The translations under genes and the position numbers were made by a program. From positions 124,001-188,000 of the forward strand of contig JAAWWF010000041.1 of NCBI GenBank assembly GCA_021404565.1: a DNA stretch of 64,000 nucleotides, given 5' to 3'. Shown piece by piece: positions 8,502 through 58,518 of this stretch. The notes below the pieces were generated by a model. That model did not search any database. It was given only the letters and a program-made list of their open reading frames with translations, and was not told the DNA's origin. Source of the stretch: Roseivirga sp. GTDB lineage: Bacteria > Bacteroidota > Bacteroidia > Cytophagales > Cyclobacteriaceae. Position 1 is the stretch's first letter. Every line of letters starts with the position of its first letter.

Positions 8502-9470
8502 ATGAACAAATTCCCAAGGTATCTGTTCGCACTGATGGCCCTCTTTACAGGGCTGAATGCAAACGCTCAGCAGGATGCTCAGTTTACGCAGTACATGTTT
8601 AACCAGATGTACTTTAATTCTGCATTTACTGGAGTAGAAGGTGGTACCACACTCACTGCCATTCATCGCTCACAGTGGTTTGGTTATGACGGTAGTCTTA
8701 ATCAGGCCGGAGCGCCCAATACACAGGTGATCAGTTATAGCAGCAGACTCAATAATTTTAACGGAGGATTTGGTCTCTATATCAGCAATGATAATCTGGG
8801 GCCCAGTAACAATCTTGAACTGCAGGCTTCCTTTGCTCGCTACTTTGCTTTGCCCAACGGAGCCTCATTGAGTGTAGGGGTGAAAGCGGGATTCTTTTCC
8901 AGTGCTCTGGATTTCGATGAGCTGATACTGGTGGATCCTTCAGATGTTGTGGCAAACCTTTCTGGTAAAGAATCACAACTCAGACCAGATTTGGGTGTAG
9001 GAATACTGTATAGAAAAGGAAATTTTTTTGGTGGTTTAAGTGCAAATCACTTACTTGAACCAGAGTTTGACTTCGGAGAAGACCAACTTTCCAATCAATT
9101 AAATCGACACTACTATTTGACAGCGGGTTATGATTATACCATAACCCCTCAATTGACGATCACCCCAAGCATTTTACTTAAATCTGTAGGTTTTAATACT
9201 TACAATGTAGATTTAAGCGTTATTGGCAAGTATAACGATAAATTGTGGGCGGGATTGGCTTATAGACAATCGGAATCGGCATCAGCGATGTTCGGATACA
9301 AATTGTTAAAAGATCGTTCTTTGACGCTGGCTTATGCTTTTGATTTTGTGATATCTGACAGGGACAGTAAAGAACCTACTTCTCAGGAGCTCATGTTGAT
9401 CTATAATTTCAAAAGGTCAGGAGGAGGTCCGGCTAGAAGTATCATAAGAACCCCAAGGTATCGTTATTAA
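8502..9470 (+). CDS. porP: PorP/SprF family T9SS membrane protein
   Basis: A 322-residue outer-membrane beta-barrel protein. It has a signal peptide cut after NANA (about residue 23), then the family hallmark QDAQFTQYMFNQMYFNSAFTG, with PorP/SprF-typical HRSQWFGYDG and FGLYISNDNLGP. These proteins belong to the type IX secretion system; F. johnsoniae SprF is needed for surface delivery of SprB, and PorP in Porphyromonas is a T9SS component. Its position immediately upstream of gldKLMN is the common arrangement in Cytophagales-type genomes. The C-terminus is extended by a short basic tail (RTPRYRY). It may be transcribed with gldK, although the 144-base gap contains a possible control element. 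Confidence 0.92.
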   Translation: MNKFPRYLFALMALFTGLNANAQQDAQFTQYMFNQMYFNSAFTGVEGGTTLTAIHRSQWFGYDGSLNQAGAPNTQVISYSSRLNNFNGGFGLYISNDNLGPSNNLELQASFARYFALPNGASLSVGVKAGFFSSALDFDELILVDPSDVVANLSGKESQLRPDLGVGILYRKGNFFGGLSANHLLEPEFDFGEDQLSNQLNRHYYLTAGYDYTITPQLTITPSILLKSVGFNTYNVDLSVIGKYNDKLWAGLAYRQSESASAMFGYKLLKDRSLTLAYAFDFVISDRDSKEPTSQELMLIYNFKRSGGGPARSIIRTPRYRY

Positions 9471-9499
9471 AATTGAAGTTTAACAATCATTAAGTTTTG

Positions 9500-9520
9500 G
9501 ATAAATTTCTGATAAATTTC
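9500..9520 (+). repeat. Tandem direct repeat GATAAATTTC upstream of gldK
   Basis: The 10-mer GATAAATTTC occurs at 9500-9509 and again at 9511-9520, an 11-base period that places both copies on one face of the helix. It lies in the 144-base gap between porP and gldK, about 95 bases before the gldK start. This geometry suits a regulator-binding site, but no regulator is known. Confidence 0.35.
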
Positions 9521-9614
9521 GGCTGGTCGATGGATTAGTCGCTTGAAAATGTTATTTTTCGCGCTTTATTTGATTGAGCAGCAATAAGATAGAGTAGCTG
9601 AGCTTAAACAAACT

Positions 9615-10904
9615 ATGAAACAAATATCAATGAGGAGGATATCTTTAGGTATGGCAGCATTGTCACTTTTGGTCTTAACGTCCGGGTGTTCAATGTTCCA
9701 GGGGTTTCTTGGCGGAGGCGGAGGAAGCAAGGAGCAAAAGCTGAACGAATCGGGGCAGCTTATGGGTGTTCCGGACCGTGAGGGATGGTATCAGGAAACG
9801 CCATTTGGGATGGTTCAGATTCCGGGTGGTACCTTTTATATGGGGCAGGCTGACGAAGACGTTGCCGCTTCCCAAATCAACTTTAACAGACAGATTACGG
9901 TGAGTTCATTTCTGATGGACTCAGAGGAGATAACCAACAATGAGTATCGTCAGTTCTTGTACGCATTAGATACTTTATTGCAGAACCCTAACGAAACCTA
10001 TTGGACCGCTCAGGTAAAGCAGGAGGTAACTCCTAATCCTGAGGTTTGGAATGAAGAGTTTGCCTATCATATGGGGGATAAAATGGTTCAGTACTATTTT
10101 AGCCACCAGGCTTTCGATGATTATCCTATTGTAGGTATCAGTTGGGAGTCTGCTGAGAAGTTTGCAGAGTGGAGAACTGAGCACTTCAATATCGGGTACG
10201 AAGATGAATACTTTGGTACCGGAGGTGGTGGTCTTGGTGGTTTGTTTGGTGGCAAAAAGAAAAAGAATCAGGCAGATCCTGCGGATGATCCTTTTGGCGC
10301 ACCACTAGGGGCTGCTCCTTTAGGGGCTCAGGGCAATACCCAGGGCCAGCAAGGCGGTGCTGCTAATTCTACCTTCAAGAGTACACTGCCGGAAGAAGCA
10401 AGGTATCCTAACTTCAGACTGCCTACAGAAGCAGAGTGGGAATATGCCGCTCGTGGCGGAAGAGAAATTATTAAGTATCCCTGGGGTGGACCTTATACCC
10501 GTAATAGAAACGGTTGTTTCCTCGCTAACTTTAAGCCTGGCAGAGGTAACTATGATGATGATGGGTATCCTTATACGGCTCCTGTAAACTCATTTCTACC
10601 CAATAACTTTAACTTGTACAATATGGCGGGCAACGTGGCCGAATGGTGTCGCGATGATTACTCTCCAGTTTACAATCCTCTTGTATGGGATTTGAACCCG
10701 CTCTTTTTATACAATGACTCCGAAAGCCAAAATCCTCACTTCGGCAAGAAAGTAGTGAGGGGCGGTGCCTGGAATGACATTGCACATTATCTTGAAACAG
10801 GAACGCGTACTTACGAATATAAAGATGTAGCGTCAGCGTCTATTGGTTTCAGATGTGCTATGGACTACCTCGGACGCGCTGGCGATGACTTCGGTGCCAA
10901 TTAA
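9615..10904 (+). CDS. gldK: T9SS ring lipoprotein GldK/PorK
   Basis: A 429-residue lipoprotein with lipobox LTSGC, lipidated Cys25. The rest is a formylglycine-generating-enzyme-like (SUMF1) domain: IPGGTFYMGQ, FRLPTEAEWEYAARGG, NMAGNVAEWCRDDY, RGGAWND and IGFRCAMD are all present. GldK forms the periplasmic ring with GldN under the outer membrane; no enzyme activity is known. An unusual low-complexity insert of about 50 residues, rich in Gly, Lys, Pro, Ala and Gln, sits at residues 200-250 just before the FRLPTEAEW motif. A further five-glycine run follows the lipid anchor. The gene is first of the gldKLMN set; gldL starts 37 bases downstream. Confidence 0.95.
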   Translation: MKQISMRRISLGMAALSLLVLTSGCSMFQGFLGGGGGSKEQKLNESGQLMGVPDREGWYQETPFGMVQIPGGTFYMGQADEDVAASQINFNRQITVSSFLMDSEEITNNEYRQFLYALDTLLQNPNETYWTAQVKQEVTPNPEVWNEEFAYHMGDKMVQYYFSHQAFDDYPIVGISWESAEKFAEWRTEHFNIGYEDEYFGTGGGGLGGLFGGKKKKNQADPADDPFGAPLGAAPLGAQGNTQGQQGGAANSTFKSTLPEEARYPNFRLPTEAEWEYAARGGREIIKYPWGGPYTRNRNGCFLANFKPGRGNYDDDGYPYTAPVNSFLPNNFNLYNMAGNVAEWCRDDYSPVYNPLVWDLNPLFLYNDSESQNPHFGKKVVRGGAWNDIAHYLETGTRTYEYKDVASASIGFRCAMDYLGRAGDDFGAN

Positions 10905-10941
10905 ATTTTTGAAAAAATCTTCAACCTAACATACAATACTT

Positions 10942-11748
10942 ATGGCTAATAAATCTTTTAAGGAAAACTTTTACGGCAACGTAATGCCCAAAATCTATGG
11001 CTTGGGAGCCTCTGTGGTAATTGTGGGAGCGATGTTTAAGCTGGAAGGCTGGGCAGGTGCCACACCTATGTTGATCTTAGGACTTTCTACAGAAGCTTTG
11101 ATTTTTGCGTTCAGTGCTTTTGAACCTAAAGGCAAGGACCTGGCAGAGATAATGGAAAAGAGTTTTCCAAATAAGCCTGAGGTTAAGAAAAGCCAGGGTG
11201 AGAAAGTAGATTTGAAGAAGATGCTCAGTGATGCCAAAATCACGGGTGATGACTTCAAAAATCTCGGTGCTGGCATGAATAACCTTTCCAATTCAGCCAA
11301 AGGACTGGCCGATTTGTCGAATGCAGCTGTAGCCTCATCTACTTATGCCGACAATGCCAAGAAAGCTTCGGCAACACTTGGTAAAATGAATGAAAGCTAT
11401 GCAAATACGGCCTCTGCTCTTGGAGAAATGGCCAAGAACGCTAAAGGTGCTGGTGAATTCCAGGGACAACTGAAAACAGCTGTCGGTCAGTATCAGGAGC
11501 AATTAAAAAGCGCTTCTACGCAGTTGGCTGCCCTTAATAACGTATATAAAGAAGAGTTGAACGACTCACAGGCTCATGTGAAAGCAATCAAGTCTTTCTA
11601 TGCTAATATCGACACTGCTTTGGCAGGTGTAGGAGCTGCTTCTAAGGAGGCAGAAGAATTTAAAGGTGTGATGGCCAAACTAAACACCAATGTTAATTCG
11701 TTGAACAAGGTGTATGGCGCTATGTTGTCTGCAATGAAGTCTAACTAA
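10942..11748 (+). CDS. gldL: T9SS motor protein GldL/PorL
   Basis: A 268-residue inner-membrane protein. Two membrane helices lie at residues about 17-35 and 40-60, with the intramembrane Glu51 in TPMLILGLSTEALIF corresponding to the conserved glutamate of GldL that is implicated in proton-driven rotation, and Lys33 at the end of helix 1. After FEP comes a long cytoplasmic domain of helical, alanine-rich repeats (AKKASATLGKMNESYANTAS). With GldM it forms the proton-powered motor for type IX secretion and gliding. The leader contains ACCTAACAT ten bases before the ATG, similar to the leaders of several array genes in this window. gldM starts one base after the stop codon. Confidence 0.95.
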   Translation: MANKSFKENFYGNVMPKIYGLGASVVIVGAMFKLEGWAGATPMLILGLSTEALIFAFSAFEPKGKDLAEIMEKSFPNKPEVKKSQGEKVDLKKMLSDAKITGDDFKNLGAGMNNLSNSAKGLADLSNAAVASSTYADNAKKASATLGKMNESYANTASALGEMAKNAKGAGEFQGQLKTAVGQYQEQLKSASTQLAALNNVYKEELNDSQAHVKAIKSFYANIDTALAGVGAASKEAEEFKGVMAKLNTNVNSLNKVYGAMLSAMKSN

Positions 11749-11749
11749 T

Positions 11750-13360
11750 ATGGCTGGAGGAAAAGAAACACCAAGGCAGCGGATGATCGGTATGATGTAC
11801 CTGGTACTTACCGCACTGCTGGCCTTACAGATCAAGGACACCGTCCTTGAGAAATTTGCTCTGATGGAAGAAGGCTTAGGGTCTTCAAATTCATCTTACA
11901 TGGCTGAAAACAACAATACTGTCAGTAATATAACCAGTGAGGTAGCTAATCAGGGTGATAAACCTGAGGATGTTGCAGTTCTGGAAAGTGCTAAGAATGT
12001 AAGAGCGCTAACAACTGATGTTATTACTTTCATTGATGGGATGAAGGAAGAACTTGAGCTGGGAGCTACTGGAGGAGACCTTACAAAGCGTAAGGAAAGA
12101 AGTGTCTTGAAGAAGTATGAGGAACCCTCACACTACATGGTGGAAAAAGGGAATGCCAATATTCTAAAAGAGAAGCTTGACCAGTACAATGCTGATATGC
12201 TCGGGATTTTACAAGAAAATGCAATATCGAGAGATTGGAGAACCCTGGCTTTGAATGCGAATGAGATGGACCTTTATAAGGATAATCCTGAAGAGAGGAA
12301 AAAAGGCTTTGCCGATTTGAATTTCTACAAGACTCCCCTGGCGTCTACCATAGCACAGCTGACTTTCTATCAGAACCAAATTTATGCGAGAGAGTCAGAT
12401 GCACTGGGTGAGCTGGCAGCTAAGGTAGGTGCCACCACTTTTAAAGGCTTTGATGTGATTTCGGGAACTGTATTACCGGTTTCTAATATCGTAACGGCCG
12501 GTACTAATTTTGAGGCTCAGCTTTTTCTTACAGCTGCAAACTCGGCCTTGGCACCTGAAATGACAAAAGATGGTCAGTCATTGACTGTAGATGATGAAGG
12601 TCGTGGAAAAGTTGAATTTAAGGCTTCGGCCAGAGATGCAGATTACGATGCAAATGGTCTTGCTAAGAAGACTTTCAAAGCTGAAATAAAATATAACAAT
12701 AACGGTGTTGAAGAAGTCATTCCTATCACCCATGAGTATTTTGTGGCGAAACCCACGATTCAAATCGGGTTGAATGCGGTATCTGCTTTATACCTGAATT
12801 GTGCGAATAATCTTAAAATTGATGTACCATCTCTTGGACCTGCCTACCAGCCTAGTTTTCAGGTAACTGGAGGTAAAGCTGTTCCTGGTGCTAACAAAGG
12901 AGATGTTATGATAGCACCTAATCAAAGAAACATTAAGATTGGTGTTTCGAGTGCAGGTATCTTTATCGATAATGTAGATTTCACTGCTCGAAGAGCACCG
13001 CTACCAACCTTTAAGCTTCAGGTTAATGGCAAGGATTACAATGCCAGCCAGGGTCTGAATTCAGCCCCTGCCTCTGTTACACTGTTTTTATCAGCAGATG
13101 CAGAGTTTAAAGCGGCATATCCTGATGATGCGAGATTCTTTGTTACCAAAGGGAAAATTGAACTAGCCCGTGGAAGTAATGCCATTAAGGTGATACAAAT
13201 CAAGGATAGAACATTTTCGGTGAACCTGGCTGAAATACGATCTCAGGCAAGAAAAGGTGACAGGATTGTTGTGGAGGTAGAGGAAGTGACTCGTTACAAC
13301 TTTGAAAACGTACCAGAGACTTTCACTTTTGGTGAGAAGAAAGTCATGTCCATAAATTAA
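11750..13360 (+). CDS. gldM: T9SS motor stalk protein GldM/PorM
   Basis: A 536-residue protein. The start MAGGKETPRQRMIGMMYLVL with one N-terminal membrane helix (residues about 11-28) is the GldM signature; the helix sits inside the GldL pentamer. The remainder is a periplasmic stalk of four domains (residues about 40-220, 225-320, 330-430 and 430-536 by comparison with the known family layout) that reaches the GldK/GldN ring. Length fits the family (about 515-540). It follows gldL by one base and precedes gldN by four, so the three are translationally coupled. Confidence 0.95.
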   Translation: MAGGKETPRQRMIGMMYLVLTALLALQIKDTVLEKFALMEEGLGSSNSSYMAENNNTVSNITSEVANQGDKPEDVAVLESAKNVRALTTDVITFIDGMKEELELGATGGDLTKRKERSVLKKYEEPSHYMVEKGNANILKEKLDQYNADMLGILQENAISRDWRTLALNANEMDLYKDNPEERKKGFADLNFYKTPLASTIAQLTFYQNQIYARESDALGELAAKVGATTFKGFDVISGTVLPVSNIVTAGTNFEAQLFLTAANSALAPEMTKDGQSLTVDDEGRGKVEFKASARDADYDANGLAKKTFKAEIKYNNNGVEEVIPITHEYFVAKPTIQIGLNAVSALYLNCANNLKIDVPSLGPAYQPSFQVTGGKAVPGANKGDVMIAPNQRNIKIGVSSAGIFIDNVDFTARRAPLPTFKLQVNGKDYNASQGLNSAPASVTLFLSADAEFKAAYPDDARFFVTKGKIELARGSNAIKVIQIKDRTFSVNLAEIRSQARKGDRIVVEVEEVTRYNFENVPETFTFGEKKVMSIN

Positions 13361-13364
13361 TTGA

Positions 13365-14381
13365 ATGATAACTATGCGTAAGCTATACTACTTTTTGATT
13401 GTGATGGTGGTTGCTACTGGTGTTAATGCACAGCAGGTAGAGGACTATGAGGATTTGAAGAATTCTCGTAAGCACAACCCGAATTCATTGAGGCCGGTGA
13501 GAGATGAGGATATAATGTATAGTATACGCGTTGTATCCCGAATGGATATGAGGGAGAAGATCAATCGACCCTGGAACTCCGAGAAATCGAAGCTCATAGA
13601 GTTGATTTTTGAAGGGGTTGAAAAGTGGTACGAGGAGTACGAGCAGTCTGCAGAATCAATTTCAGCAGATACTGCGGGAATCAGACCTTTGTCTGCTTTG
13701 ACGGATGGCTTTTTAGAAGCTGACTTACTTCCCAAAGACGAATATTTCAGTAATATTTCGGATCCTGCGACAAAGTCTTCTCGTGATATGGATCAGGATC
13801 AGGAGGATGCCTTTATTCAAAATTTGTTGTTCTCTAATCCAAACATGACTGATGTTGAAAAGGAGGATGCCATTCGCGCTGAGAATACTAGAAGAGCAAC
13901 CGGAACTCGTTTCGCACCTGGTGTAGTGGTGACTTTGGAAATCGAAGAGGATTTAATTTTCGATAGAAACCACTCTACTTCCAAATGGGATATTCAAACG
14001 GTAACCGTTGTTATTACAACTGATGTTCTGTATCCGAATGATGCGGATTTGAGGGCTTCTTCCACCAATGTAAAGGTGGTAAGGGTGAGGTATAAAGATC
14101 TGTCTCGTTATTTGAGAAAGGTATATGCAGAGAGTGATCAGGAGCGAGGTTATTGGTTTAATTCGAATAACCCCGGAAAGAGAGAAATCAGCTTTGCTGA
14201 TGCATTCGACCTGAGACTGTTTAATTCCTGGATTATCCAATACTCAAATACTGGAGGAGATAACCTACAGGCCATTTTGGGTAACCCGAATACAGATCAA
14301 GGTAGATTGAGCATTCTGGAATTATCACAGCAGTTCAAACGTAAGCTTCTGGAATACCAACATAACTTATGGGAATACTAG
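13365..14381 (+). CDS. gldN: T9SS ring protein GldN/PorN
   Basis: A 338-residue periplasmic protein with a signal peptide cut near GVNAQQ. The family features are IMYSIRVVSRMDMREKINRPWN near residue 45 and the later RYKDLSRYLRKVY and FDLRLFNSWI segments. GldN binds GldK to make the periplasmic ring of the T9SS. Two ATG codons (13365 and 13374) are close together; either gives the same signal peptide core. It is the last gene of the gldKLMN operon and ends at a strong bidirectional terminator shared with uvrC. Confidence 0.93.
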   Translation: MITMRKLYYFLIVMVVATGVNAQQVEDYEDLKNSRKHNPNSLRPVRDEDIMYSIRVVSRMDMREKINRPWNSEKSKLIELIFEGVEKWYEEYEQSAESISADTAGIRPLSALTDGFLEADLLPKDEYFSNISDPATKSSRDMDQDQEDAFIQNLLFSNPNMTDVEKEDAIRAENTRRATGTRFAPGVVVTLEIEEDLIFDRNHSTSKWDIQTVTVVITTDVLYPNDADLRASSTNVKVVRVRYKDLSRYLRKVYAESDQERGYWFNSNNPGKREISFADAFDLRLFNSWIIQYSNTGGDNLQAILGNPNTDQGRLSILELSQQFKRKLLEYQHNLWEY

Positions 14382-47100: not shown

Positions 47101-50100
47101 CTTGTGGTAAGGAAAGCATTATCAGTGCTTGACTGATCCGTGAATTGGACAGATGGATTAAAGTTGATCTGAGCAGTTTCGTAGGTAGGTTCTACAGGTG
47201 CTCCTCCTCCCTGATTAATTCCTGTGACATTATTACTATTACCGCTTTGATCAGACCATGAAGTCACATCGGCAGCGTCAGTAGTAGTATTGGTCCCGGC
47301 ATCTGCTCTCAGCCACATAGCTAAGTTAGTGGTTACACCGGCAGGACCACAGGCGGTTCTGGCAGTTCCGATAGTAAAGAAGTCTCCGTCAGTAAAATCT
47401 ACATTAGTGAATGTGAGAATGTTATCAACCAGCGAAGCAGCCGGGGTAACGGAACCACTCGCCATGGTAGCGGTGCTACTTGTAATTAATTGGAAATCGG
47501 AAAGGGTTGTGCTATAACCTAAGCCAGTGATATCAAACTGAACGGTAGTAGCACCTACCGTATTGGTTTCGTTTATCCTCCAGATACGTTCCATGCGCTC
47601 GGTTACATTACCGGGTACATCCAGCGTATTGGCATTGGCTTGATTTGTAAAGTCACCATCATTACCCCAAAGCATAAAGGTGTCATCGGCACCAAAAGAG
47701 TTAGCATTGGCTGCATTGTTAGTCTCAATACCACCGAGACCAATAGCTACGATAGATCCTGAATTTTCACTTTTTGACTGCTTTTGGTTCAGGCAAGAAG
47801 CATCATCACGGCCAATACCTGCTACATCATTGTGGTAAGTGCTGTAAACGTCAGCATCCCAGATATTAGTCGTACCTGCACTGGTGTAATCACCAGCCGT
47901 TCCGCCTCCTGAGTTATCAAGCGTAATACCATACTTTACTGCCAGGTAAGATTGAATTCTATTGTGCTCAGCGTCAGTTGGGAAAACCGAGTAAGAAATA
48001 AGCTCAGCGATCTGTCCGTCAAAATGACCGGTAGTGGTAAAGGCATTGGCTGCTGTGTAACTCCCTACTTCATAGTCCTGATCAACAGATGTAAGGAAGG
48101 TGCCTGAGTTCAGGTCGGCCTGTTCCAGACCATCCACGTACATATTGGTGGTTGTCGCACTGACGGCATTATCACGGATACCGAAAAGGTAAGTCTGCCC
48201 GCTATTAATTTGTGAAATGGTGGTAGAAGAAATACCCCTTCTCCAACGTGTTCCTGTACCGCCAATGGCATGCGTTACCACTTCACCTGAAAAAGCACCG
48301 GTAACTGATCCAAAGGCAAAAGCACCAAATTCATCAGTAGCTCCGGCAGGTGCACCAAAACCTACCAATACTTCATTGGTTGAGGCACTGGTAAGGTTGT
48401 TGTCTGGGTTTACCACCATATAATAGGCCACCGAGTGGAAGCCTGCCGTGCCTGTAATTTCTTCTGTGTTTCCCTGATCAAAATTTACTGCCGGATTATA
48501 GTTGATAGAAGTAGCAGCATAATTTGGCTGGTTCCCCGCTGCGGTGGCATCATTTCCTCCAGTCGATTTGTCGGTCCATGTGGCTACATCAGCACCATCT
48601 ACGGTAGTACTTGTTCCGTCATCCGCTCTTAGCCACAAATCCAGGTTGGTTTCTACTCCTCCGGGTGAACACTCGAAATAATTAGTGCCCAGCGTAAAAT
48701 ATTGTCCGTCATCCAGGTCTACACCCGTGAAGGTGATGACACTGCCATTGATGGTCGCTCCGGAAACAACGGTAGCACTGCTGAAATCAGCACTGGAGTT
48801 GTTGGCAGCTATAAGCAATGAGAAGTCATGCGCATCGGTACTGAGTCCCAGGCCTGTGAGGTCAAAAGATACAGAAGTGGTCAACACTTCATTGGTTTCG
48901 GCCACTCTCCAAACCCTGCTAATGCGAGAATCAATGGTGTCGGGCATTGTCAGTCCGGTAGTCTCTGTAAGACCCCCTCCGTCATTTCCCCAGATCAACC
49001 AGGTATCATCCGTACTGATGGTAGCACCTCTGTCCATGGTGACAAGGCTACCGGTATTTTCACTTTTTGAGGCTGGTTGATCCAGTTCTGCAGCATCATC
49101 ACGGCCGATACCGGCAATGTCATTGTTGTACTCCAGATAACCACCCAATGAGGCGTTATTGGTGGCATCAAAGATGATATCACCGTCTGAGTTTACATAA
49201 TCGTTAGCCGTTGACTGGTCAAGGGTAATACCATATTTAATGGCCAGGTAGCTTTCGATACGATCTCTTTGTGCGGTGGTGAAAGAGCCTGGTTCGTTAC
49301 AATAGATAAATTCTGAAATTTCACCTTCAAAAGAGTTGGTGCTCGCGTTAGTGCCATCGTCATACTGAGTACTACCGTCTGATCCACCAAATTCAATGCC
49401 ATCAGTATCGCTGAAAAGCAGCCCTACACTGGAAAGGGTACCGAAGCTCGCACCATTCAGGTAAGCCGTTAATGTACCCGAAACTCCACTGGCTCCGGCC
49501 AATTCCAGGGTTATGATATATTCAGTATTGGTTGAAACAGATGTGCTCACCGTGGTGATGTTTGTTCCGTTATTCCAGGGCGAACCAGTTCCGTCATTGT
49601 TTCTGTTGTAGGCCGAAACATGGAGGTTGCCACTACGGATGTAGACGATTATACCACGTGTATTACCACCCTGCTCGTACAATACCTGACGATCAGTTAC
49701 GTCTGTAGTGCTGGTTCTGAAAGCGAGATTGATTCCCTTGTTGGTGTAAGAAGTTGCGGTGTTAAAGTCAGAGTTATTGGCAATAGTCAGACTGGTAGAG
49801 CCTGATGTGAAATCAACAGTCGGGTTGAAGTTAATGGCACTGCTGGTACTTCTATAGGTAGGGGCAGCTACACCAGTGGTGGCGTCATGGTCACCAATCC
49901 AGTGATCTTGCCAATCTGTTACGGTGGAAGCATCGGTAGAAGTAGTTACATCAGCATCTACATTGGCTTTTAGCCAGGTAGAAAGGGCAGACTTGTAACC
50001 TCCCGGGCCTTTTGTTTCTATTAAATTGTCATCACTGGCTACAGCCGCTGAAACTCCTGCTACCAGGTCAAGCCCTGAGTCATTTGAGTTTGTATCTGTT

Positions 50101-51080
50101 GGGAAGGTAGAAATATCGGTGAGGTCAACTCCCGCTTTTACCGTTTGAGAACCTGAACCTACTACCTGACCGGTGTTAGTGGTATATCCACTGACGATAT
50201 CGGCCGAAAAGATAGAGTAACCAAAAACTGATTGATTGGCAGAAATGCCCAGCTCGGTAAATGAAACAGCAACTCCCTGTATGGTTTGTGCTGATTGCCC
50301 CTCGTCAGTACCAATCGGAAGTAGGGGTAGTGGGGTACTTCCTGCACTTTCTCTCCTTAATACCAGATAGTTATTAAAGCTTGAACCCGTTCCCGGCCAG
50401 CCGTTTTCAGGAATACCTATTAGGGTGCCGTAGCCCGCTGGTGTTCCATCAATATTTAAGCTAGTGATAGCCGCTATTGCAATGTTGTCGTTACCACCAC
50501 GCTCTATCACGGGAAATACCGCAGTGCCGGGTACGGAAGTCTGGATACCGGAAAACCAGATAACATCTACTCTTTCAGTTTCCACCTCGATAATCCCGCC
50601 TCCGGCAGGGTCTACATTTACAAGGATATTGTCATAACCCGCATTCAGATTTCCCGTGAGGTAAATAGCATCCGCATCCGATGCCTCATCAGAATCGAGA
50701 AAGGCCTGGTCGTTGGTAGGTGGTACATTATCAACAATGGAGCTATTCATTGTGTACCAGATATTTACCAGGCGGTCACTGGCTGTAGCTCTGTTAAGTA
50801 TAAGGGTGTCTGGCACAAGAAAGCGGTCGTAGACTGTGCCACTTACGGTATAGGAAGATACTTTGACATTGTTGCCCTGACCATAGTTTATGGTCATGGT
50901 TTCACCACGGTCATCGATAAGGGAGTTACCAGCATCACTTGGTATAACAGGTGCATTGGACGAACTGGAACCAGCTACCGTAGAGGTAGTAATGGTACTG
51001 ATACCTGTTTGCCCGAAGGAGGGCATAGTCAGTAATAAGAAGACCACGGTGGTGACGGCCGCGGAATTAAGCCTGAGCAT
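44118..51080 (-). CDS. Giant modular T9SS cargo protein, array copy 3 (four modules)
   Basis: About 2320 residues. The frame extends to TTG 51104, but ATG 51080 starts a good signal peptide (MLRLNSAAVTTVVFLLLTMP, cut after FGQ), and the leader ACCTAAACATC then sits nine bases upstream, as in copy 4; ATG is preferred. The N-terminal domain (YGQGNNVKVSSYTVSG, LNAGYDNILVN, FPVIERGGNDNIAIAAIT) extends to about residue 355. Modules start near residues 358, 802, 1243 and 1689, with lectin classes A, B, C, C. A fibronectin-like domain near residue 2131 (ALPITLISFDA) precedes the T9SS type A tail (YPNPVNRGE). Only seven Cys occur, all at fixed module positions. A 26-residue insertion with GQVVGSGSQTVKAG lies before module 1. 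Confidence 0.9.
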   Translation of the reverse strand: MLRLNSAAVTTVVFLLLTMPSFGQTGISTITTSTVAGSSSSNAPVIPSDAGNSLIDDRGETMTINYGQGNNVKVSSYTVSGTVYDRFLVPDTLILNRATASDRLVNIWYTMNSSIVDNVPPTNDQAFLDSDEASDADAIYLTGNLNAGYDNILVNVDPAGGGIIEVETERVDVIWFSGIQTSVPGTAVFPVIERGGNDNIAIAAITSLNIDGTPAGYGTLIGIPENGWPGTGSSFNNYLVLRRESAGSTPLPLLPIGTDEGQSAQTIQGVAVSFTELGISANQSVFGYSIFSADIVSGYTTNTGQVVGSGSQTVKAGVDLTDISTFPTDTNSNDSGLDLVAGVSAAVASDDNLIETKGPGGYKSALSTWLKANVDADVTTSTDASTVTDWQDHWIGDHDATTGVAAPTYRSTSSAINFNPTVDFTSGSTSLTIANNSDFNTATSYTNKGINLAFRTSTTDVTDRQVLYEQGGNTRGIIVYIRSGNLHVSAYNRNNDGTGSPWNNGTNITTVSTSVSTNTEYIITLELAGASGVSGTLTAYLNGASFGTLSSVGLLFSDTDGIEFGGSDGSTQYDDGTNASTNSFEGEISEFIYCNEPGSFTTAQRDRIESYLAIKYGITLDQSTANDYVNSDGDIIFDATNNASLGGYLEYNNDIAGIGRDDAAELDQPASKSENTGSLVTMDRGATISTDDTWLIWGNDGGGLTETTGLTMPDTIDSRISRVWRVAETNEVLTTSVSFDLTGLGLSTDAHDFSLLIAANNSSADFSSATVVSGATINGSVITFTGVDLDDGQYFTLGTNYFECSPGGVETNLDLWLRADDGTSTTVDGADVATWTDKSTGGNDATAAGNQPNYAATSINYNPAVNFDQGNTEEITGTAGFHSVAYYMVVNPDNNLTSASTNEVLVGFGAPAGATDEFGAFAFGSVTGAFSGEVVTHAIGGTGTRWRRGISSTTISQINSGQTYLFGIRDNAVSATTTNMYVDGLEQADLNSGTFLTSVDQDYEVGSYTAANAFTTTGHFDGQIAELISYSVFPTDAEHNRIQSYLAVKYGITLDNSGGGTAGDYTSAGTTNIWDADVYSTYHNDVAGIGRDDASCLNQKQSKSENSGSIVAIGLGGIETNNAANANSFGADDTFMLWGNDGDFTNQANANTLDVPGNVTERMERIWRINETNTVGATTVQFDITGLGYSTTLSDFQLITSSTATMASGSVTPAASLVDNILTFTNVDFTDGDFFTIGTARTACGPAGVTTNLAMWLRADAGTNTTTDAADVTSWSDQSGNSNNVTGINQGGGAPVEPTYETAQINFNPSVQFTDQSSTDNAFLTTSSNPATGNMTLMAVYSTTQSDAGGAHYNSPAILGADHGTTGNNYALGMSSGRLHAKIGNGDGFGARDANTSNDGVPRIATATRVQAASGALELYLNSENVATSTSDNNALTDPDALGIGNHEAAATAAQFAGEIPEVLVFTSVLSADDRTKVETYLAIKYGITRSVADGDDVSTGSFDERDYRRADGTVIWDYDGQGSTYYNDIAGIGRDDDGCFTQKQSSSENSDDILTVGLGSVAASNSTNVNGFDDNGDYFVWGNDNGATAQASANTADIPSTISERMTRIWKVDDTGTVGATELQFDLTGLGYSVSDASAFSLLVGNTATMADATIVTGGTLNGNVLSFTGIDLTDGQFFTIGTGFVTCGPGGVNTNIALWLRADIEVFSDAGSTAAVDGNDVGQWNDQSSPADNGSESNLGGGGVIEPTYETGEINFNPVLRFTDPGSTNASYIETSTNTVSGDMTLISLFKTGQSDGSGTDFATSPALIGASETSGTLDYGMGMDDGTIWVNANTTATFDAETSSTFNDSQPHFVTATRTQSSGAITIYVDANSETTGTGSTSALSDPTSFGVGNHSDGDTDAQYAGDIAETIVFSSVLTSDERNRVESYLSLKYGLTMNAADDGGTGGVDERDYRAADGGVIWDYTGQTATYYNDIFGIGKDDLSCFEQTQSKSENSDALVTFNNNGSFSTDDSFLISGNDNAAIEEIENKERPATINSRLNREWRVQETGTVGSISLTYDMSTISGPLGTGTNNANLLRLMVDDDGDFSNGGTTLISPTSIDGTANTVTFSVDFTDGQYYTLGSTEEDALPITLISFDASVNDKNEVQLEWATAEEIGNSYFSIERSTDGVEFEIIGTREGAGNSNTVVEYSFTDIRPLNGEAFYRLRQTDFNGEFEHSEIKRVFVDNSAEIAFRVYPNPVNRGEIISVKQSSGSAEMPSFSYQVLTLNGKVVRSGKSENAQGTVGIQTAGLGSGIYLLKVKSEGLPPRTIKFIIN

Positions 51081-51612
51081 TTTATTAACGATGTTTAGGT
51101 TCAAATCTCCCTGTCTTATCTACAAAATCATATCACCGTACAATACGGAATCCAGTATAGACCAGAAATCAATTATGGTTATGCAGGACACAGTATTCAG
51201 CTAGTGGTTGAGAATAGCTAAGTGAAAACTGTGCCAAAAGACAGAATGCTTTGTTGGCAGCAAAAATGGGGAAATTTTTGGGATTTCAAGCGTTTTTTTT
51301 GAGATGAACGACAAATACTTGAAAAGTTTTTCCCAAAACGGGACTTAGAGACCAATGGGGGAGCTTTTGGTTTTTATAAATACTGGTTTGGTTTTGTTTT
51401 ATATAGAGATATTACTATTTGTTACTTTTCCTTAGTAGGCATTGAAATGATTATTGGTTTGGAAGTCGGCCGGAATGCTTTTTTAAGGCAGATTTCAGTA
51501 AAGCTGAATTGTGATTAGCTCTGGTTTTAAAAGACTAATCCATTAGTCCATTTCCCTTGCAGCGTTTTGAACATATCAGGAGACTGAAAAGTACTGGGCT
51601 TTGTCTTAATTA
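51081..51612. other. Gap between array copies 3 and 4 (about 530 bases)
   Basis: The longest non-coding stretch of the window. It contains the leader motif of copy 3 (51090-51100), GGACACAGTA near 51186 (also before copy 2), AT-rich sequence from 51260 to 51440, and a short hairpin with a T run near 51533. No gene, tRNA or TAnnTTTG box is visible on the - strand. Confidence 0.6.
51529..51548 (-). terminator. Possible terminator after array copy 4
   Basis: On the - strand GACTAA-TGGA-TTAGTC forms a perfect 6-bp stem with a 4-base loop, followed by TTTT. It is 64 bases after the stop of copy 4. The stem is short and AT rich, so termination would be weak. Confidence 0.45.
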
Positions 51613-54600
51613 TTAATGCACGATCAGCTTGAGTGCATATACCTGATTGTTTTGATCAATGATACGGATAATGTTGAGGCCCTTGCTCAGATTATCTGTT
51701 GGGATTCTGATAGATGACTTGTCCATGTCCAAGCGTATTAGGGTGGATGTCAGGAGGTTTCCCTTTGAATCAGCGATCTGCATTTTGATCTCCTGATCTT
51801 CCATGATGTTATAAGAGAACTGGAGAGTTTCTCCACGGGCAATGGGATTGGGGTAGGCTCTGAAGTCAGCCACCAACACTTTTTCGACATAAACAGATCG
51901 TAATTCGGAGTATTCAAATTCCCCGTTTCTGTCTGTTTGTTTTAAGCGATAGTAGTTTCGCCCGTTTACAGGCTTCAGGTCGGTGAAAGTATAGTGGAGT
52001 AATTCATCACCATTACCCTGGCTTTCTCGTGTACCAATGGCTTCAAAATTCACCCCGTCCTCACTTCTTTCTATGGTGTAAAATGCATTATTGATTTCCT
52101 GGACGGTAACCCAGTTCAGTTCAACCCCGAGAGCTTCTTCCTGATTGGCCGTGAATGAAATTAAAGTAACCGGAAGAGCTGCTACTTCGGTGGAACCAAG
52201 TGTGTAGTACTGGCCGTTTGTGAAGTCTACATCGAAGGTAGCTGTGTTATTGGTACCGTCAATGGATGAAGGGGCAATGAGTGTGGCTCCCGAGCTGAAA
52301 TCCCCATCATCATCTACCAGTAATCTGAGGAGATTAAGGTTGTTGGTACCTACGCCCAACGGACCTGTAATGCTTGCAAGGTCATAAGTAACCTCAACGG
52401 TTCCTACTGTTCCGGTTTCCTGCACTCTCCATTCTCTGTTAAGTCTACTGGCAATACCTGCTGGTTTCTCAGGGTTGTTTTCCTGCTCTACCACAGCATT
52501 GTCGTTTCCTGAAAGAATGAATGAATCGTTGGTACCAAAGCCTCCTGGCAAATTAAGAGTGACTAACGCATCGCTGTTTTCACTTTGAGATTGAGTTTGC
52601 TCAAAACAGGAAAGATCATCGCGGCCAATGCCAAAGATATCGTTGTAATAAGTGGTGCCCTGCCCGTCATAATCCCAGATGATACCTCCATCGGCAGCCA
52701 GATAGTCTTGCTCAACGGCTGGTAGAGAGGCCACCACCCGGGTAAGACCATATTTTACAGCAAGGTAAGTTTCAACCCTGGTGCGCTCGTTGGCAGTGAG
52801 CACACTGGAGAACACAATGCTTTCTGCAATGTCTCCGGCAAACTGGGCGTCAACATCGCCATCGCTGTGATTGCCAATACCAAATGAGGTAGGGCCTGTC
52901 AGAGCACTGGTTGAACCCGTACCCGAGGCTACAGATTCAGAATCGACATAAAGGTTAATAGCACCGGAGCTTTGTACCCTTGTGGCTGATACAAAGTGTG
53001 GGTTGTTGTCATTATAAGTTGCGGGAGTTTCTGCATCAAAACCTGTAGATGTATTGGCATTGAGGAAGAGCTGCCCATTTTCCATACCCAGTCCGTAGTC
53101 CAGGGTACTGCCGGTCTCACTGGCGCCAATCAGTGCAGGAGAATTTACAAAATCTCCCTGAGTACCTGAAGCCTGGCCTGTCTGGAATACCGAGATCAAT
53201 GTCATATCTCCCGATACAGTGTTGGTGGTGGTCTCTATATAGGAGGCATTGGATGAGTTGGGATTTGAAAAACGCAAAACCGGATTTGAATTGATCTCAT
53301 TGGTTTCGAAAGTCGGCTCTAATGGATTGGCACCACCAAGATTTACTTCGCTGCCATTGTCCTGCGGAGAGCTCTGGTCGTTCCATTGCAGGGCATTGTC
53401 ACCGTCTGTTGCTGGTGTAGTGCCGGCATCCGAAAATACCTGCAGATCACCTCTTAGCCACAGGGCGATATTGGTATTCACACCTCCGGGACCGCAGGTT
53501 TCTACGGCCGTACCAATGGTAAAGAACTGTCCATCCGTCAGGTCAATGCCGGTGAATGAAAGCACGCTACCATTGAGCGTTCCACCTGAAATGATAGTAG
53601 CATCTGCCATGGTGGCGGTATTGCCTACCAACAGAGAGAAAGCTGAGGCATCTGCTACACTGTAACCCAAACCGGTAAGATCAAACTGGAGTTCTGTAGC
53701 CCCTACGTTACCCGTATCTTCTGCTTTCCAAACGCGGGTCATGCGTTCCGCAATGGTCGATGGCAAATCAGCTGTATTGGCGCTGGCCTGATCGGTGGCA
53801 CCATTGTCATTTCCCCACACCAGGTAGTCACGATCATCGGTGAAGTTATTGAGATTGGCACTATTGGAACTTTCAACGGAACCAAGACCGACAGTCAATA
53901 TATCGTCAGTATCCTCTGCGGTCGACTGTCTTTGAATCCAACAAGAGGCGTCATCACGGCCAATACCGGCCACATCGTTGTGGTAAGTTGTGTTATTGGC
54001 GTATGTCCAGACAATGGTAGTGCCATCAGAAGATACATAATCTCCCTCTCTTACACTCCCGGAAATAATTTCATTGGTAGTGCCATCGTTGTCATTATTA
54101 TCCGTAAGCATAATGCCATACTTCAGGGCTATGTAGGTATAGATCTGTTGCTTTTCTAAATCAGTGACATCATTTTCATACACCACTACTTCGGGAATGA
54201 GTCCATTATAGTTGCCGATTGAGTTTACATCTCCTACATAATTGGTTTGTGAACCGCTAATGTCGGTAGTATTTGAATCTGTGTTTCTGGCATAGTTACC
54301 GCCACGCGTTTCTTCAACTACTCTGCCAGTACCATCATATTCTCCGTAAAGAATGAATGGAGCTGCGGGGCTATCAAAGGCATTGGTGGTTACGTCAAGG
54401 TCATTTCCCCAGTGGGCCAAAGTAGCTTGTGAGTTGTTATTTCTATAACCAAAGTGCAAGTCCTGATTGGAGGTGCCTCCTGTAGAGCCCAGTACGAAGT
54501 TATACTCAGGTCCGTCCTGTCTGATTCCTACACCTACCATGGTATAATCTCCCCCATTAGTAGCACCTGATTTGATATTGGCAAGGTTACCAAGCGTCAG

Positions 54601-57600
54601 GCGATCATCCGTTCCATCAAAATCGATGGTAGGGTTGAAATTGATATTGTCAGTGATGTTGTTTTTAAAGAGCGGAGGGTTTCCATCAGAGGTAGCATCG
54701 TTTCCACCAGACTGATCCGTCCAGGTAGCCAATGTGGTATTATCGGTAGTAGTGGAAGTACCCACATCGGCCCTGAGCCAAACGTAAAGGTCGGTGATTA
54801 CCCCTCCGGGACCGCAGGCGGTACGGGCAGTGCCCAGGGTGAAAAACTGCCCGTCAGTAAGATCTATCCCTGTAAAGGTTACCGTATTGGTACCTCCATC
54901 GTATGAGGCTGCCGGGTAAGTAGTACCTGAAGCCATGGTGGCACTATTTGAAACGATTAGTTGAAAATCGGTGGAGGTAGTGCCATAACCCAGACCCGTT
55001 ACGTCAAAAGTAATACTGGTGGCTCCTACAGAACCTGTATCATCTACCTTCCAGATGCGCTCCATACGTTCTGTAACTCCGCTAGGCAGATCGGAGGTAT
55101 TTGCATTTGCCTGATTGGCCAGATCTCCGTCACTTCCCCACACCAGGAAGTCTCCGTCATCATCAAAGGTATTTGCATTGTCAGCATTGGTGGCAGCGAT
55201 CGTACCGAGTCCCATTTTTACAATACTTCCGCTATTCTCACTTTGAGATTGCTTTTGATCCAGACAGGCCTTATCGTCACGGCCAATGCCTGCAATGTCG
55301 TTGTTGTAGGTGGCGTTGGTCGTAGCATCCCATACGGTGGTAGCATCTGATCGGGTATAGTTGGTGGCAGAAGACTGATCCAGTGTGATGCCATATTTGA
55401 TGGCCATACTGGTTTCAATGCGATTCCTGTCGGCAGCCAGGTAGCTGGAAGGCTCATTGTAGTAAGAGATTTCAGAAATGAAACCATCAAAGGATGCAGC
55501 TCCACTGGTAGATCCATCAGCATAACGGGAAGCGCTGTTTTCATCACCAAGCCCTATGGCATCTGTATGGCCATAAAGTCTTCCGATATTGGAAAGAGGA
55601 GTACCGAAGCTGGCGCCATTCAGGTAACCTGTTACGGTGCCTGTAATGGCATCATTTCCAGCATAATCAAAGGTGATAATGTACTCTGTGTCGGTGGCAA
55701 TGGAGGAGGTATTAACAGTGGCGATGGTTCCAGTGTTCCAGGGAGCTCCGGTACCGTCACTGGCCTGATTCCAGGCGGAGAGGTGTAATACGCCAGACTG
55801 GATATAGAGATTAAGTCCTCTTGTAGCTCCACCTTGTTCATAAATCACCTGTTGGGTGGTGATATCATCCCCTGTTCTGAAGGCAATGGTAAATTTTTTG
55901 GAGGTAGATTCATCAACGTTGAAGCCTCCGACATTGGCGATTGAAATACCTGTTGTTCCGGTACTGAAATCAACGGTAGGGTTGTCATTGATAAGTTGTG
56001 TGCTTGCCCTATAGATTGGGGAAGTAATATTCGATCCATCATTGTTGGAGGCTGTCTGATCGTCCCAGGCGGTTACATTCGATCCTTCAGTAGCCGTAGT
56101 GACACCATTATCGGCTCTTAGCCACATGATAGCTCCGTCATCGTAATTACCGGGCGTACAGAAGAAGAATTCAGTGCCGAGCGTAAAGTATTGGCCATCA
56201 TCTAAATCTACTCCGGTGAAGGTAATTACATCTCCGTTGAAAGTACCTCCGGTAAGCACGGTAGCATTGCTGAAATCGGCATTTGAGCTGTTACTGGCCA
56301 CCAGCAGGCTAAAGTCTGTGGCCGATGTGCTTAGCCCCAACCCGGTCAGGTCAAATGAAACCGAGGTATTCTGAACTTCGTTACGCTCGGCTACTCTCCA
56401 GACTCTGTTGAGTCTTTGATCGATTGTATCCGGAGAGGTGAGCAATGAGGTTTGAGTAAGAGCCGCTCCATCATTGCCCCAGATCAACCAGGTGTCATCA
56501 GTACCTATAGTGGCTCCACGATCAATAGTGACTACGCTACCAGTGTTCTCACTTTTCGAGGCAGGCTGGTCCAGTTCAGAGTTGTCATCCCGGCCTATGC
56601 CTGCAATGTCATTGTTGTATTCCAGGTAACCTCCAATGGAGGCATTGTTGGTGGCATCGAAAATGATGGTGCCATCAGAATTCAGGTAGTCAATAGGGCT
56701 GCTCTGATCGAGGGTAATACCATATTTGATGGCCAGGTAACTTTCTATTCTTCTTCTTTGAGATAAAGGGAGGCTACCTGGCTCATTGCAATAAATGAAT
56801 TCAGTGATCTCTCCGTAAAATGAAGCTGCTGCTGTGGTGCCGTCATGGTAGCGAGAACCACCATCCTGATCTCCCAGGCCGGTATCATTACCATGGTTGT
56901 ATAGCAGCCCCACAGAGCTGAGAGTGCCAAAGCTTTGTCCATTCAAATATAAGACGATAGTGCCGGTACTACTTGAGCTACCGTCAAACTCCATGGTGAG
57001 AATATACTCTGTATCCGCACTGAGAGAAGTACTGATAAAGGTGGTAGGAGTGCCATCATTCCAGGGAGCTCCACTACTTCCTGAATTACCTCTGTTCCAT
57101 ACGGCTCCGTACAGTGTGCCACCATCGATGTAAATGCCCAGACCATTAGAACCACCGCCTTCTTCAAATAATTGCTGGCGCGTAGTGACGTCCGTATCTG
57201 TTCTGAACGCAATGTTCAGAGACTTCCGTGTGTAAGGCCCTCCCGTATTATAATCGGCATTATCGGGTACTTGCAAACCTGTTTCGGTGCCGCTCAGAAA
57301 ATCTACGGTTGGGTTGAAGTTTACCGCACTGGTGCTGGACCTGAAGGTAGGCGCAGTGGTGAGGGTAGTGAAGTCATGATTGCCAACAGACTGATCCTCC
57401 CAAAACCCTACATTGGTACCTTCAGTTGAGGCAGCCCCTCCACTAGTTACAAAAGCTCCGTCATTTGCTTTCAACCAGGTAGCCAGGGCTGATTTATAGC
57501 CCCCGGGTCCGACTGTCTCTATCAGATTATCATCACTAGCTACAGCAGCGGAGACTCCGGCTACCAGGTCAAGACCAGATACGGAAGAAAGTGTATTGGT

Positions 57601-58518
57601 TGGGAATGTGCTGATATCGTTTAGGCTGACACCCGCGGCAATGGCCGGTGCACCGCCTACACCTTCTACATCTGAAGCAAACAGCGAATAACCAAAGATG
57701 CTCTGACCTGCTGTAATTCCAAGTTCTGTAAAGCTTACAGCCACTCCCTGAACAACCTGTGATCCGATTTCAATTAATGGAATAGGATCATCCCCAACTG
57801 CCTGACGCCTGAGTATAATGTATTGCGAAAACGTCTGACCGGTACCAGGCCAGTCAGATGAAGCTACTCCCACTAAGGTGCCATAAGTGGCAGGTGTGCC
57901 ATCCGGATTGAGAGATGTAATGGCGGCTATGGCGATATTGTCATTCCCTCCGCGTTCAATAATGGGGAAAACTGAAGTGGTTGGGTCGGAGGTTTGAATT
58001 CCCGAAAACCAGATAACATCTACTCTTTCAGTTTCTACCTGGATACTTCCGGAGGCCAGGTCATCGTCATTCACGAGAATATTGTCATATCCGGCATTGA
58101 GATTTCCTGAGAGATAGATGGCGTCAGCTTCAGGTACGATATCAGGATCTATATCCAACTCATCAGGGTTTGGAGTGGTATTGATCTGATCTAGTTGGTA
58201 CCAGATATTTACGAGTCTGTCGGTGGCAATTCTGCGATTAAGAATAAGGGTGTCCGGACTCAGAAAACGGTCGTAAGTGGTGCCTGAGACCACGTAAGAG
58301 GTGACATTTACATTGTTGCCCTGGCCGTAGTTTATATTGTATTGGGTACTGGGAATGATGCTGTTACCTGCATCACTAGGAGCAGTAACAAGAGTTGTGG
58401 TGGTGGTTCCAACAACAGTACTGGTATTTATGGTGGAAATACCAGTTTGGGCCCATATACTCGCCCCCCAAAACATAGATATTGTGGCAAAGGCTACCAC
58501 AAATATTAGCCTGGACAT
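51613..58518 (-). CDS. Giant modular T9SS cargo protein, array copy 4 (four modules)
   Basis: A 2301-residue protein. Signal peptide cut after IWAQ (about residue 24). The N-terminal domain is very close to copy 3 (GQGNNVNVTSYVVSGTTYDR, LNAGYDNILVN, FPIIERGGNDNIAIAAIT). Four modules start near residues 337, 786, 1235 and 1675. Lectin classes run A, A, D, C: module 2 is a second class A unit (ISIANVGGFNVDE, QVIYEQGGATRGLNLYIQSG), found in no other internal position. Module 3 has an aspartate-rich loop (DNNDNDGTTNE). A fibronectin-like domain starts near residue 2111, and the T9SS type A tail (YPNPIARGE) near 2217. The leader ACCTAAACATC lies ten bases before the ATG. Confidence 0.9.
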   Translation of the reverse strand: MSRLIFVVAFATISMFWGASIWAQTGISTINTSTVVGTTTTTLVTAPSDAGNSIIPSTQYNINYGQGNNVNVTSYVVSGTTYDRFLSPDTLILNRRIATDRLVNIWYQLDQINTTPNPDELDIDPDIVPEADAIYLSGNLNAGYDNILVNDDDLASGSIQVETERVDVIWFSGIQTSDPTTSVFPIIERGGNDNIAIAAITSLNPDGTPATYGTLVGVASSDWPGTGQTFSQYIILRRQAVGDDPIPLIEIGSQVVQGVAVSFTELGITAGQSIFGYSLFASDVEGVGGAPAIAAGVSLNDISTFPTNTLSSVSGLDLVAGVSAAVASDDNLIETVGPGGYKSALATWLKANDGAFVTSGGAASTEGTNVGFWEDQSVGNHDFTTLTTAPTFRSSTSAVNFNPTVDFLSGTETGLQVPDNADYNTGGPYTRKSLNIAFRTDTDVTTRQQLFEEGGGSNGLGIYIDGGTLYGAVWNRGNSGSSGAPWNDGTPTTFISTSLSADTEYILTMEFDGSSSSTGTIVLYLNGQSFGTLSSVGLLYNHGNDTGLGDQDGGSRYHDGTTAAASFYGEITEFIYCNEPGSLPLSQRRRIESYLAIKYGITLDQSSPIDYLNSDGTIIFDATNNASIGGYLEYNNDIAGIGRDDNSELDQPASKSENTGSVVTIDRGATIGTDDTWLIWGNDGAALTQTSLLTSPDTIDQRLNRVWRVAERNEVQNTSVSFDLTGLGLSTSATDFSLLVASNSSNADFSNATVLTGGTFNGDVITFTGVDLDDGQYFTLGTEFFFCTPGNYDDGAIMWLRADNGVTTATEGSNVTAWDDQTASNNDGSNITSPIYRASTQLINDNPTVDFSTGTTGISIANVGGFNVDESTSKKFTIAFRTGDDITTQQVIYEQGGATRGLNLYIQSGVLHLSAWNQASDGTGAPWNTGTIATVNTSSIATDTEYIITFDYAGNDAITGTVTGYLNGASFGTPLSNIGRLYGHTDAIGLGDENSASRYADGSTSGAASFDGFISEISYYNEPSSYLAADRNRIETSMAIKYGITLDQSSATNYTRSDATTVWDATTNATYNNDIAGIGRDDKACLDQKQSQSENSGSIVKMGLGTIAATNADNANTFDDDGDFLVWGSDGDLANQANANTSDLPSGVTERMERIWKVDDTGSVGATSITFDVTGLGYGTTSTDFQLIVSNSATMASGTTYPAASYDGGTNTVTFTGIDLTDGQFFTLGTARTACGPGGVITDLYVWLRADVGTSTTTDNTTLATWTDQSGGNDATSDGNPPLFKNNITDNINFNPTIDFDGTDDRLTLGNLANIKSGATNGGDYTMVGVGIRQDGPEYNFVLGSTGGTSNQDLHFGYRNNNSQATLAHWGNDLDVTTNAFDSPAAPFILYGEYDGTGRVVEETRGGNYARNTDSNTTDISGSQTNYVGDVNSIGNYNGLIPEVVVYENDVTDLEKQQIYTYIALKYGIMLTDNNDNDGTTNEIISGSVREGDYVSSDGTTIVWTYANNTTYHNDVAGIGRDDASCWIQRQSTAEDTDDILTVGLGSVESSNSANLNNFTDDRDYLVWGNDNGATDQASANTADLPSTIAERMTRVWKAEDTGNVGATELQFDLTGLGYSVADASAFSLLVGNTATMADATIISGGTLNGSVLSFTGIDLTDGQFFTIGTAVETCGPGGVNTNIALWLRGDLQVFSDAGTTPATDGDNALQWNDQSSPQDNGSEVNLGGANPLEPTFETNEINSNPVLRFSNPNSSNASYIETTTNTVSGDMTLISVFQTGQASGTQGDFVNSPALIGASETGSTLDYGLGMENGQLFLNANTSTGFDAETPATYNDNNPHFVSATRVQSSGAINLYVDSESVASGTGSTSALTGPTSFGIGNHSDGDVDAQFAGDIAESIVFSSVLTANERTRVETYLAVKYGLTRVVASLPAVEQDYLAADGGIIWDYDGQGTTYYNDIFGIGRDDLSCFEQTQSQSENSDALVTLNLPGGFGTNDSFILSGNDNAVVEQENNPEKPAGIASRLNREWRVQETGTVGTVEVTYDLASITGPLGVGTNNLNLLRLLVDDDGDFSSGATLIAPSSIDGTNNTATFDVDFTNGQYYTLGSTEVAALPVTLISFTANQEEALGVELNWVTVQEINNAFYTIERSEDGVNFEAIGTRESQGNGDELLHYTFTDLKPVNGRNYYRLKQTDRNGEFEYSELRSVYVEKVLVADFRAYPNPIARGETLQFSYNIMEDQEIKMQIADSKGNLLTSTLIRLDMDKSSIRIPTDNLSKGLNIIRIIDQNNQVYALKLIVH

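Follow-up and report, generated by a model that had tools for sequence, protein, structure and literature searches.

A strongly conserved, unnamed N-terminal domain in giant array proteins of Roseivirga and its putative role in surface recognition

The stretch of Roseivirga sp. DNA analyzed here (64,000 nucleotides, hereafter the window) contains, according to its open reading frame listing, five large genes in a row on the minus strand. An earlier note on this DNA had recognized in their products a long stretch between the signal peptide and the first repeat module that it could not assign to a known domain, and had suggested that it might be a head presented on a repeat stalk. What is this N-terminal domain (NTD), where else does it occur, and what might it do at the end of such large proteins?

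Boundaries, copies and conservation of the domain

In the array protein P0001 (2301 residues; ORF 51613-58518, minus strand), a signal peptide placed by eye from its hydrophobic stretch and the end IWAQ takes up residues 1 to 24 (58447..58518, minus strand). The NTD follows as residues 25 to 336 (57511..58446, minus strand), as delimited by alignments and by an AlphaFold2 model run on residues 25 to 337. These roughly 312 residues between the signal peptide and the GPGGYK start of the modules at residue 337 are common to four proteins in the window, in good agreement with the 300 to 330 conserved residues ahead of module 1 described before. The interval then given for the feature, 57520-58518, does hold it but also takes in the signal peptide and stops about four residues before GPGGYK. 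Further copies were located by alignments and genome search, likewise on the minus strand, at 50007..51008 in P0003 (array protein 44118-51104), at 42821..43726 in P0004 (36971-43807) and at 35616..36569 in P0005 (31029-36686). The fifth array protein, P0002 (58861..63942, minus strand), is cut at the window edge, and its NTD lies beyond it at 188870-189772 of contig C7.

With signal peptides included, the N-terminal regions of P0001, P0003 and P0005 are pairwise 64.3, 57.7 and 50.7% identical, and that of the divergent copy, P0004, is 43.1, 39.1 and 38.7% identical to those of P0001, P0003 and P0005. The earlier remark that copy 2 is more divergent than copies 1, 3 and 4 therefore holds, P0004 being the second copy when counted from the low-coordinate end. 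The motifs quoted in support of the domain are likewise all there, with small variations such as IIERGGND in P0001 and VIERGGND in P0003.

A search of the window's own genome with P0001 recovered six NTD copies, at E values from 1.4e-198 to 6.5e-50, of which five lie on contig C7 and one on contig C26 of the 81-contig assembly. A profile built from outside-array relatives recovered the same six copies and none further at E<=1. The genome itself, at 8.57 Mb, is about double the 4.2 Mb of each of two others in the genus, G320 and G1231, and its stated contamination is 1.7%. The NTD copies of G320 coincide in coordinates with those of R. thermotolerans (G401).

The NTD is a real and strongly conserved domain, with a resemblance among its copies that is beyond chance. 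This follows from the E values of the six own-genome copies together with a dN far below dS in the comparison of P0001 with its ortholog L007 (dN 0.033, dS 1.888, dN/dS 0.018). The ratio against L008 was 0.023 at a dS of 3.8; the two dS values (1.9 and 3.8) are near or past saturation, and dS was not computable for L009. Over the NTD, P0001 is 94.2, 88.8 and 89.1% identical to L007, L009 and L008, its closest orthologs, compared with 49.8 to 92.4% over the modules and 45.8 to 60.9% over the tails, and in each of the three pairs the NTD is more conserved than any other region behind the signal peptide. At greater distance, in L023 and L011, NTD identity is 66.0% and is exceeded by that of module 4, at 72.9 and 73.8%. 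A hypervariable or antigenic head finds no support in the NTD identities of the three closest orthologs. At the level of single positions, R96, D145, N146, E164, R165, D167, D193, D283 and D317 of P0001 are kept in at least 97% of 40 array rows and in at least 83% of 30 outside rows, 26 of them distinct.

Phylogenetic analysis of 72 rows, into which four outside relatives had entered twice with slightly different ends, placed the 42 array NTDs in one clade (support 100/98). Within this clade the copies mostly cluster by ortholog across species and not by genome, so the paralogs look older than the species compared. The NTD of P0004 sits alone on a long branch.

Occurrence outside the array proteins

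A scan of public genomes yielded 27 NTD loci, the closest being in Roseivirga records at 94% identity. At 23 of these loci, from Roseivirga, related Cytophagales and a MAG titled Rhodospirillaceae, the NTD is joined to a GPGG module; the remaining four, from Chitinophagaceae and Verrucomicrobia, have other architectures. We found the domain in 10 of 395 Bacteroidota genomes (7 of 170 genera) and, within the window's own family, in 3 of 148 genomes, which belong to a single one of 84 genera. Of 194 Verrucomicrobiota genomes 15 matched at E<=0.001, one of them the genome on which the scan was centered, and three of these 15 matches (G496, G534 and G589) are short, score 21-26 bits and are doubtful. 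An NTD private to the arrays is ruled out by 13 Bacteroidota and Verrucomicrobia loci with other architectures and by the further Verrucomicrobiota set, which answers in the affirmative the question, raised in the earlier note, of whether the domain occurs beyond the array proteins.

Type IX tails are present in three outside-array relatives (L036, L042 and L031). Elsewhere the NTD is combined with a DUF4842/LruC domain and a bacterial Ig domain (L037) or with SdrD_B domains, strongly matched in L070 and just below the cut-off in L041. L043 carries what by eye are thrombospondin-like repeats, and neither it nor L038 has a Pfam match at E<=0.1. L041 and L045, from one genome (G269), are neighboring proteins with related NTDs and share a C-terminal part that seems identical by eye; this common part has hydrophobic stretches and is unlike a type IX tail.

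In Verrucomicrobiota, several ORFs of 355-408 residues consist of little beyond a signal peptide, the NTD and a tail that by eye is PEP-CTERM-like, with PSP in L073 and PES in one frame of L079 instead of PEP. The L075 tail passes NCBIfam TIGR02595 (20.3 bits, cut-off 16) and that of L072 just misses it (15.6); against Pfam the two score 19.0 and 19.4 bits, just under the cut-off of 20.7. Tails of this kind were seen only in the Verrucomicrobiota relatives, and the window copies end type IX-like. The NTD is found with two unrelated routes of surface sorting, type IX in the three relatives named above and PEP-CTERM in L075, with L072 just under the threshold. In three Verrucomicrobiota genomes (G478, G572 and G584; loci L076 and L079 are among these) the domain occurs in adjacent pairs or a triplet.

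We rejected a viral origin of the NTD, having found no relative in viral contigs and no BFVD match at E<=1e-3, and plasmid carriage, with no plasmid match at E<=1. Occurrence in Pseudomonadota was also set aside: the outside-array profile matched 1 of 398 genomes, G396, which is titled Rhodospirillaceae and which we read as a contaminated MAG. The NTDs of L018 and L024, from the record of Rhodospirillaceae bacterium SP362, show identity or near-identity to the NTDs of Roseivirga pacifica, and for this reason the MAG is probably contaminated or mislabeled.

Database relatives, predicted folds and sorting tails

In the databases searched, the NTD is an unnamed domain family. The six own-genome copies matched no Pfam family at E<=10, the 44 aligned NTD sequences gave chance-level Pfam matches only (best E 0.026), and a sequence search against PDB chains returned nothing beyond chance (best E 1 and 0.47). 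The earlier view that this is not a known domain was largely right, there being no Pfam or PDB relative, and needs amending for one remote NCBIfam match, XDP2, that falls below its cut-off. Neither the HMM searches nor the fold prediction, both proposed in the earlier note, gave a confident match to a well-known domain of established function.

The AlphaFold2 model of the NTD, built from 44 sequences, is all beta with short helices (pLDDT 90.9, pTM 0.90). Foldseek found no match for it in the PDB at E<=1e-3. In a VIA structural comparison the best match was the CBM32 of AlyQ (Z 7.1, rmsd 3.2, 129 residues), and the rows below it include IFT25, CBM30, chitosan-binding modules, F5/8C, Eph, APC10, CBM6 and CBM35; none of the 998 chains reached Z 8, and a Z below 8 can reflect merely a common arrangement. 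Many of the best 50 rows we take to be galactose-binding-like jelly rolls, the carbohydrate-binding modules CBM32, 30, 6 and 35 included. The list spans NTD residues 49-309, so that the first 48 were barely compared, and the absence of a family from it is no evidence against that family. Because the nearest solved folds lie at Z 7.1 or less, the assignment of the modeled NTD to the galactose-binding-like jelly rolls is tentative.

Module 1 of P0001 (residues 338-788; 56155..57507, minus strand) was delimited from a joint model of the NTD and module 1, Foldseek and VIA-align. Modules 2 to 4 (52153..56154, minus strand) were placed by their common starts, of the form PG[GN][VY]...W[LI][RK], at residues 789, 1237 and 1677, and the end of module 4, at about residue 2122, was placed by eye. 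The joint model (34 sequences; pLDDT 83.3) has a pTM of 0.64, and its pLDDT is low where NTD and module 1 join, so that their placement relative to each other in the model is tentative. The whole joint model had 186 Foldseek matches at E<=1e-3, and VIA-align of its residues 320-572 gave a best Z of 19.7 to AbnA (192 residues, rmsd 2.5), in a region that is presumably a LamG/concanavalin-like domain. This model predicts a LamG/concanavalin-like lectin fold for the first half of module 1. The only sequence match to Laminin_G_2 lies in module 4 (residues 1810-1884; E 0.002, below the cut-off); from this weak match and the common starts we infer that modules 2 to 4 may be lectin-like too. A toxin reading was rejected, as the botulinum and tetanus binding domains that stand high in the module 1 fold list share the lectin fold, which by itself says nothing of function, and no toxin sign was found.

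The 'stalk' is thus likely to be a series of lectin-like modules, module 1 being the one that was modeled. Because module 1 is LamG/lectin-like, the stalk may not be inert, and its modules may bind ligands as well. The picture of a head on a long stalk is still plausible and is in keeping with the type IX tails and operon described below; with at least module 1 being lectin-like, however, it has to be revised. The NTD would occupy the membrane-distal position. Module 3 of P0001 (taken here as residues 1235-1675) is only 52.5 and 49.8% identical to that of L007 and L009, though the NTDs stand at 94.2 and 88.8%; against L008 module 3 is 82% identical. Judging from these sequences, it looks as if single modules had been exchanged between paralogs. 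Among the P0001 orthologs, divergence behind module 4 (46-61% identity) far outpaces that in most other parts of the protein.

At the C terminus of P0001, a type IX-like sorting tail (residues 2217-2301; 51616..51870, minus strand) was recognized with a profile of the P0003, P0004 and P0005 tails (i-Evalue 6.5e-17), a direct Pfam or NCBIfam tail match being absent. The same sibling profile matched the tail of P0002 (i-Evalue 6.3e-18), a protein without an NCBIfam match at E<=0.1. The tails of P0003 and P0005 belong to the type A sorting family TIGR04183 (E 2.9e-9 and 1.6e-5), and that of P0004 matches Por_Secre_tail PF18962 (E 3.9e-6, 27.5 bits against a cut-off of 27). The window also contains a type IX operon on the plus strand (8502..14381), in which PorP/SprF, GldK-like, GldL, GldM and GldN proteins were identified by Pfam matches (PF11751, PF03781, PF22827, PF12081 and partners, and PF19841); the FGE-sulfatase-fold protein among them we take to be GldK from its position. 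Export of the array proteins via type IX secretion is supported by these matches. The porP-gldKLMN operon lies about 17 kb from the array of likely cargo genes.

Candidate functions and the remote XDP2 link

Our preferred reading, put forward tentatively and at a little under an even chance, is that the NTD would be a mobile extracellular beta-sandwich recognition domain that binds a conserved glycan and serves in an adhesin role on type IX-exported giant proteins. It would sit at the N-terminal, presumably membrane-distal, end of proteins exported by type IX secretion, and the C-terminal tail would anchor each giant protein to the cell surface. Behind the NTD would come three to four modules, the first opening with a LamG lectin-like fold. 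The glycan bound by the NTD could belong to the exopolysaccharide matrix of the cell itself or be a polysaccharide of algae or particles, and the lectin-like modules would add multivalent contacts, giving matrix or surface adhesins. Both binding and a glycan ligand are suggested by the fold class, the lectin-like partner, the conserved polar residues and the link of PEP-CTERM to exopolysaccharides; PMC1569441 ties PEP-CTERM to exopolysaccharide production.

Could the NTD instead be structural? As an assembly or capping domain it would pack on module 1, on itself or on neighboring array proteins, and leave ligand binding to the LamG modules. Such a role would suit the high conservation of this N-terminal end in proteins that differ between orthologs in module 3. 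It would also suit the joint conservation of NTD and module 1 in 34 array sequences, where invariant columns run through the junction (G313, P314, G315, G316, K318, L321, W324, K326, A327 and N328 in model numbering). However, no fixed interface is suggested by the model, whose pLDDT is low at that junction, and the NTD stands alone between signal peptide and PEP-CTERM-like tail in Verrucomicrobiota and beside unrelated partners in Bacteroidota. Being found alone or with unrelated partners, the NTD does not need module 1, and we regard a capping role as possible but doubtful.

If the domain does recognize a glycan, it might be an XDP2-type exopolysaccharide-matrix domain that acts on the cell's own slime rather than on outside targets. 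XDP2 (NCBIfam NF041929) is the sole NCBIfam family matching more than three members: with matches listed to E<=10 it was found in all six own-genome copies (best E 6.9e-5) and in 35 of the 44 aligned sequences (best E 1.1e-8), and to E<=1 in 7 of 26 outside-array relatives (best E 1.1e-5), while each other NCBIfam family occurred in at most three of the 44. The association of PEP-CTERM with exopolysaccharide production (PMC1569441) points the same way. P0001, however, scores 23 bits where the cut-off is 75, with profile positions 88-186 of 198 aligned. Genome searches with the XDP2 profile gave nothing over the 75-bit cut-off in the window's own genome, where E values of the six copies ran from 5.9e-4 to 0.94 and two unrelated places fell within that range (0.26 and 0.42), nor in 18 genomes of relatives, of which two matched at E<=0.01. 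In plasmids, XDP2 matches were confined to the C-terminal end of the query, of which they covered 14-28%. One true XDP2 protein, L084 (102 bits), was found, in the same genome each time (1 of 398, 1 of 142 and 1 of 273 genomes, from a sampling that left out Cyanobacteria and Planctomycetota).

Comparison of the NTD profile with full-length L084 by hhalign gave a probability of 32.6%. Without the L084 tail, three profiles that share members gave 34.8, 57.7 and 51.6%; in all, the probability lies between 33 and 58% and just 80-87 residues align. With each of these overlapping profiles the alignment scored above all 100 shuffles, and the reversed sequence reached 10.8-15.3 against 33.5-36.8 for the real one. 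In the reciprocal direction, the outside-array profile failed at E<=0.001 to recover the XDP2 protein that genome G822 encodes. Given a core similarity above that of shuffles, yet scores below the cut-off and a missed reciprocal search, the NTD is probably a distant relative of XDP2 and not a member, as far as sequence comparison can tell. Among the matches listed in the literature searched, no published or tested function for XDP2 was found, and we consider an XDP2-type matrix role for the NTD unlikely. An enzymatic role for the NTD, such as glycan cleavage with the conserved acidic residues as active site, is very improbable: acidic and arginine residues are conserved, but no Pfam or NCBIfam enzyme family matches beyond chance, and binding modules or modules accessory to enzymes make up many of the structural neighbors.

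The preferred reading, a glycan-binding recognition domain at the tip of surface adhesins, can be extended, at a strength that we would call speculative and rather unlikely. The NTD would then represent an uncatalogued recognition-domain family used via type IX secretion in Bacteroidota and via exosortase/PEP-CTERM in Verrucomicrobiota, with XDP2 remotely related, and in Roseivirga it would form the matrix- or glycan-binding tip of lectin-repeat giants, with a target conserved across phyla. What had been an unnamed stretch can now be defined as a domain family: it has a confident model and fixed boundaries, and its small natural single-domain versions should be easy to express. Since one domain joins type IX and PEP-CTERM surface proteins, a common binding function becomes testable. 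The array proteins themselves can be reread as a conserved head on lectin-like modules, perhaps with no inert stalk at all, in which at least one module changes much faster.

Among known systems, the galactose-binding-like jelly rolls (CBM32/F5-8C, CBM30, CBM6 and CBM35) share with the NTD an all-beta sandwich, but the NTD is about twice as long (313 residues), lacks a sequence match to them and stays below Z 8. With XDP2 it shares a similar order of motifs in the common block, ERG.ND, then Q..G, then a GL..GQ.V.G stretch; XDP2, however, carries PEP-CTERM, whereas the window copies have type IX-like tails and long repeat modules. SprB-like giant adhesins of Bacteroidota are large proteins secreted by the type IX system, with a signal peptide, long repeats and a type IX tail. 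The array proteins resemble SprB in having a signal peptide, long repeats, such a tail and a large size, a likeness of general plan from which we claim no kinship.
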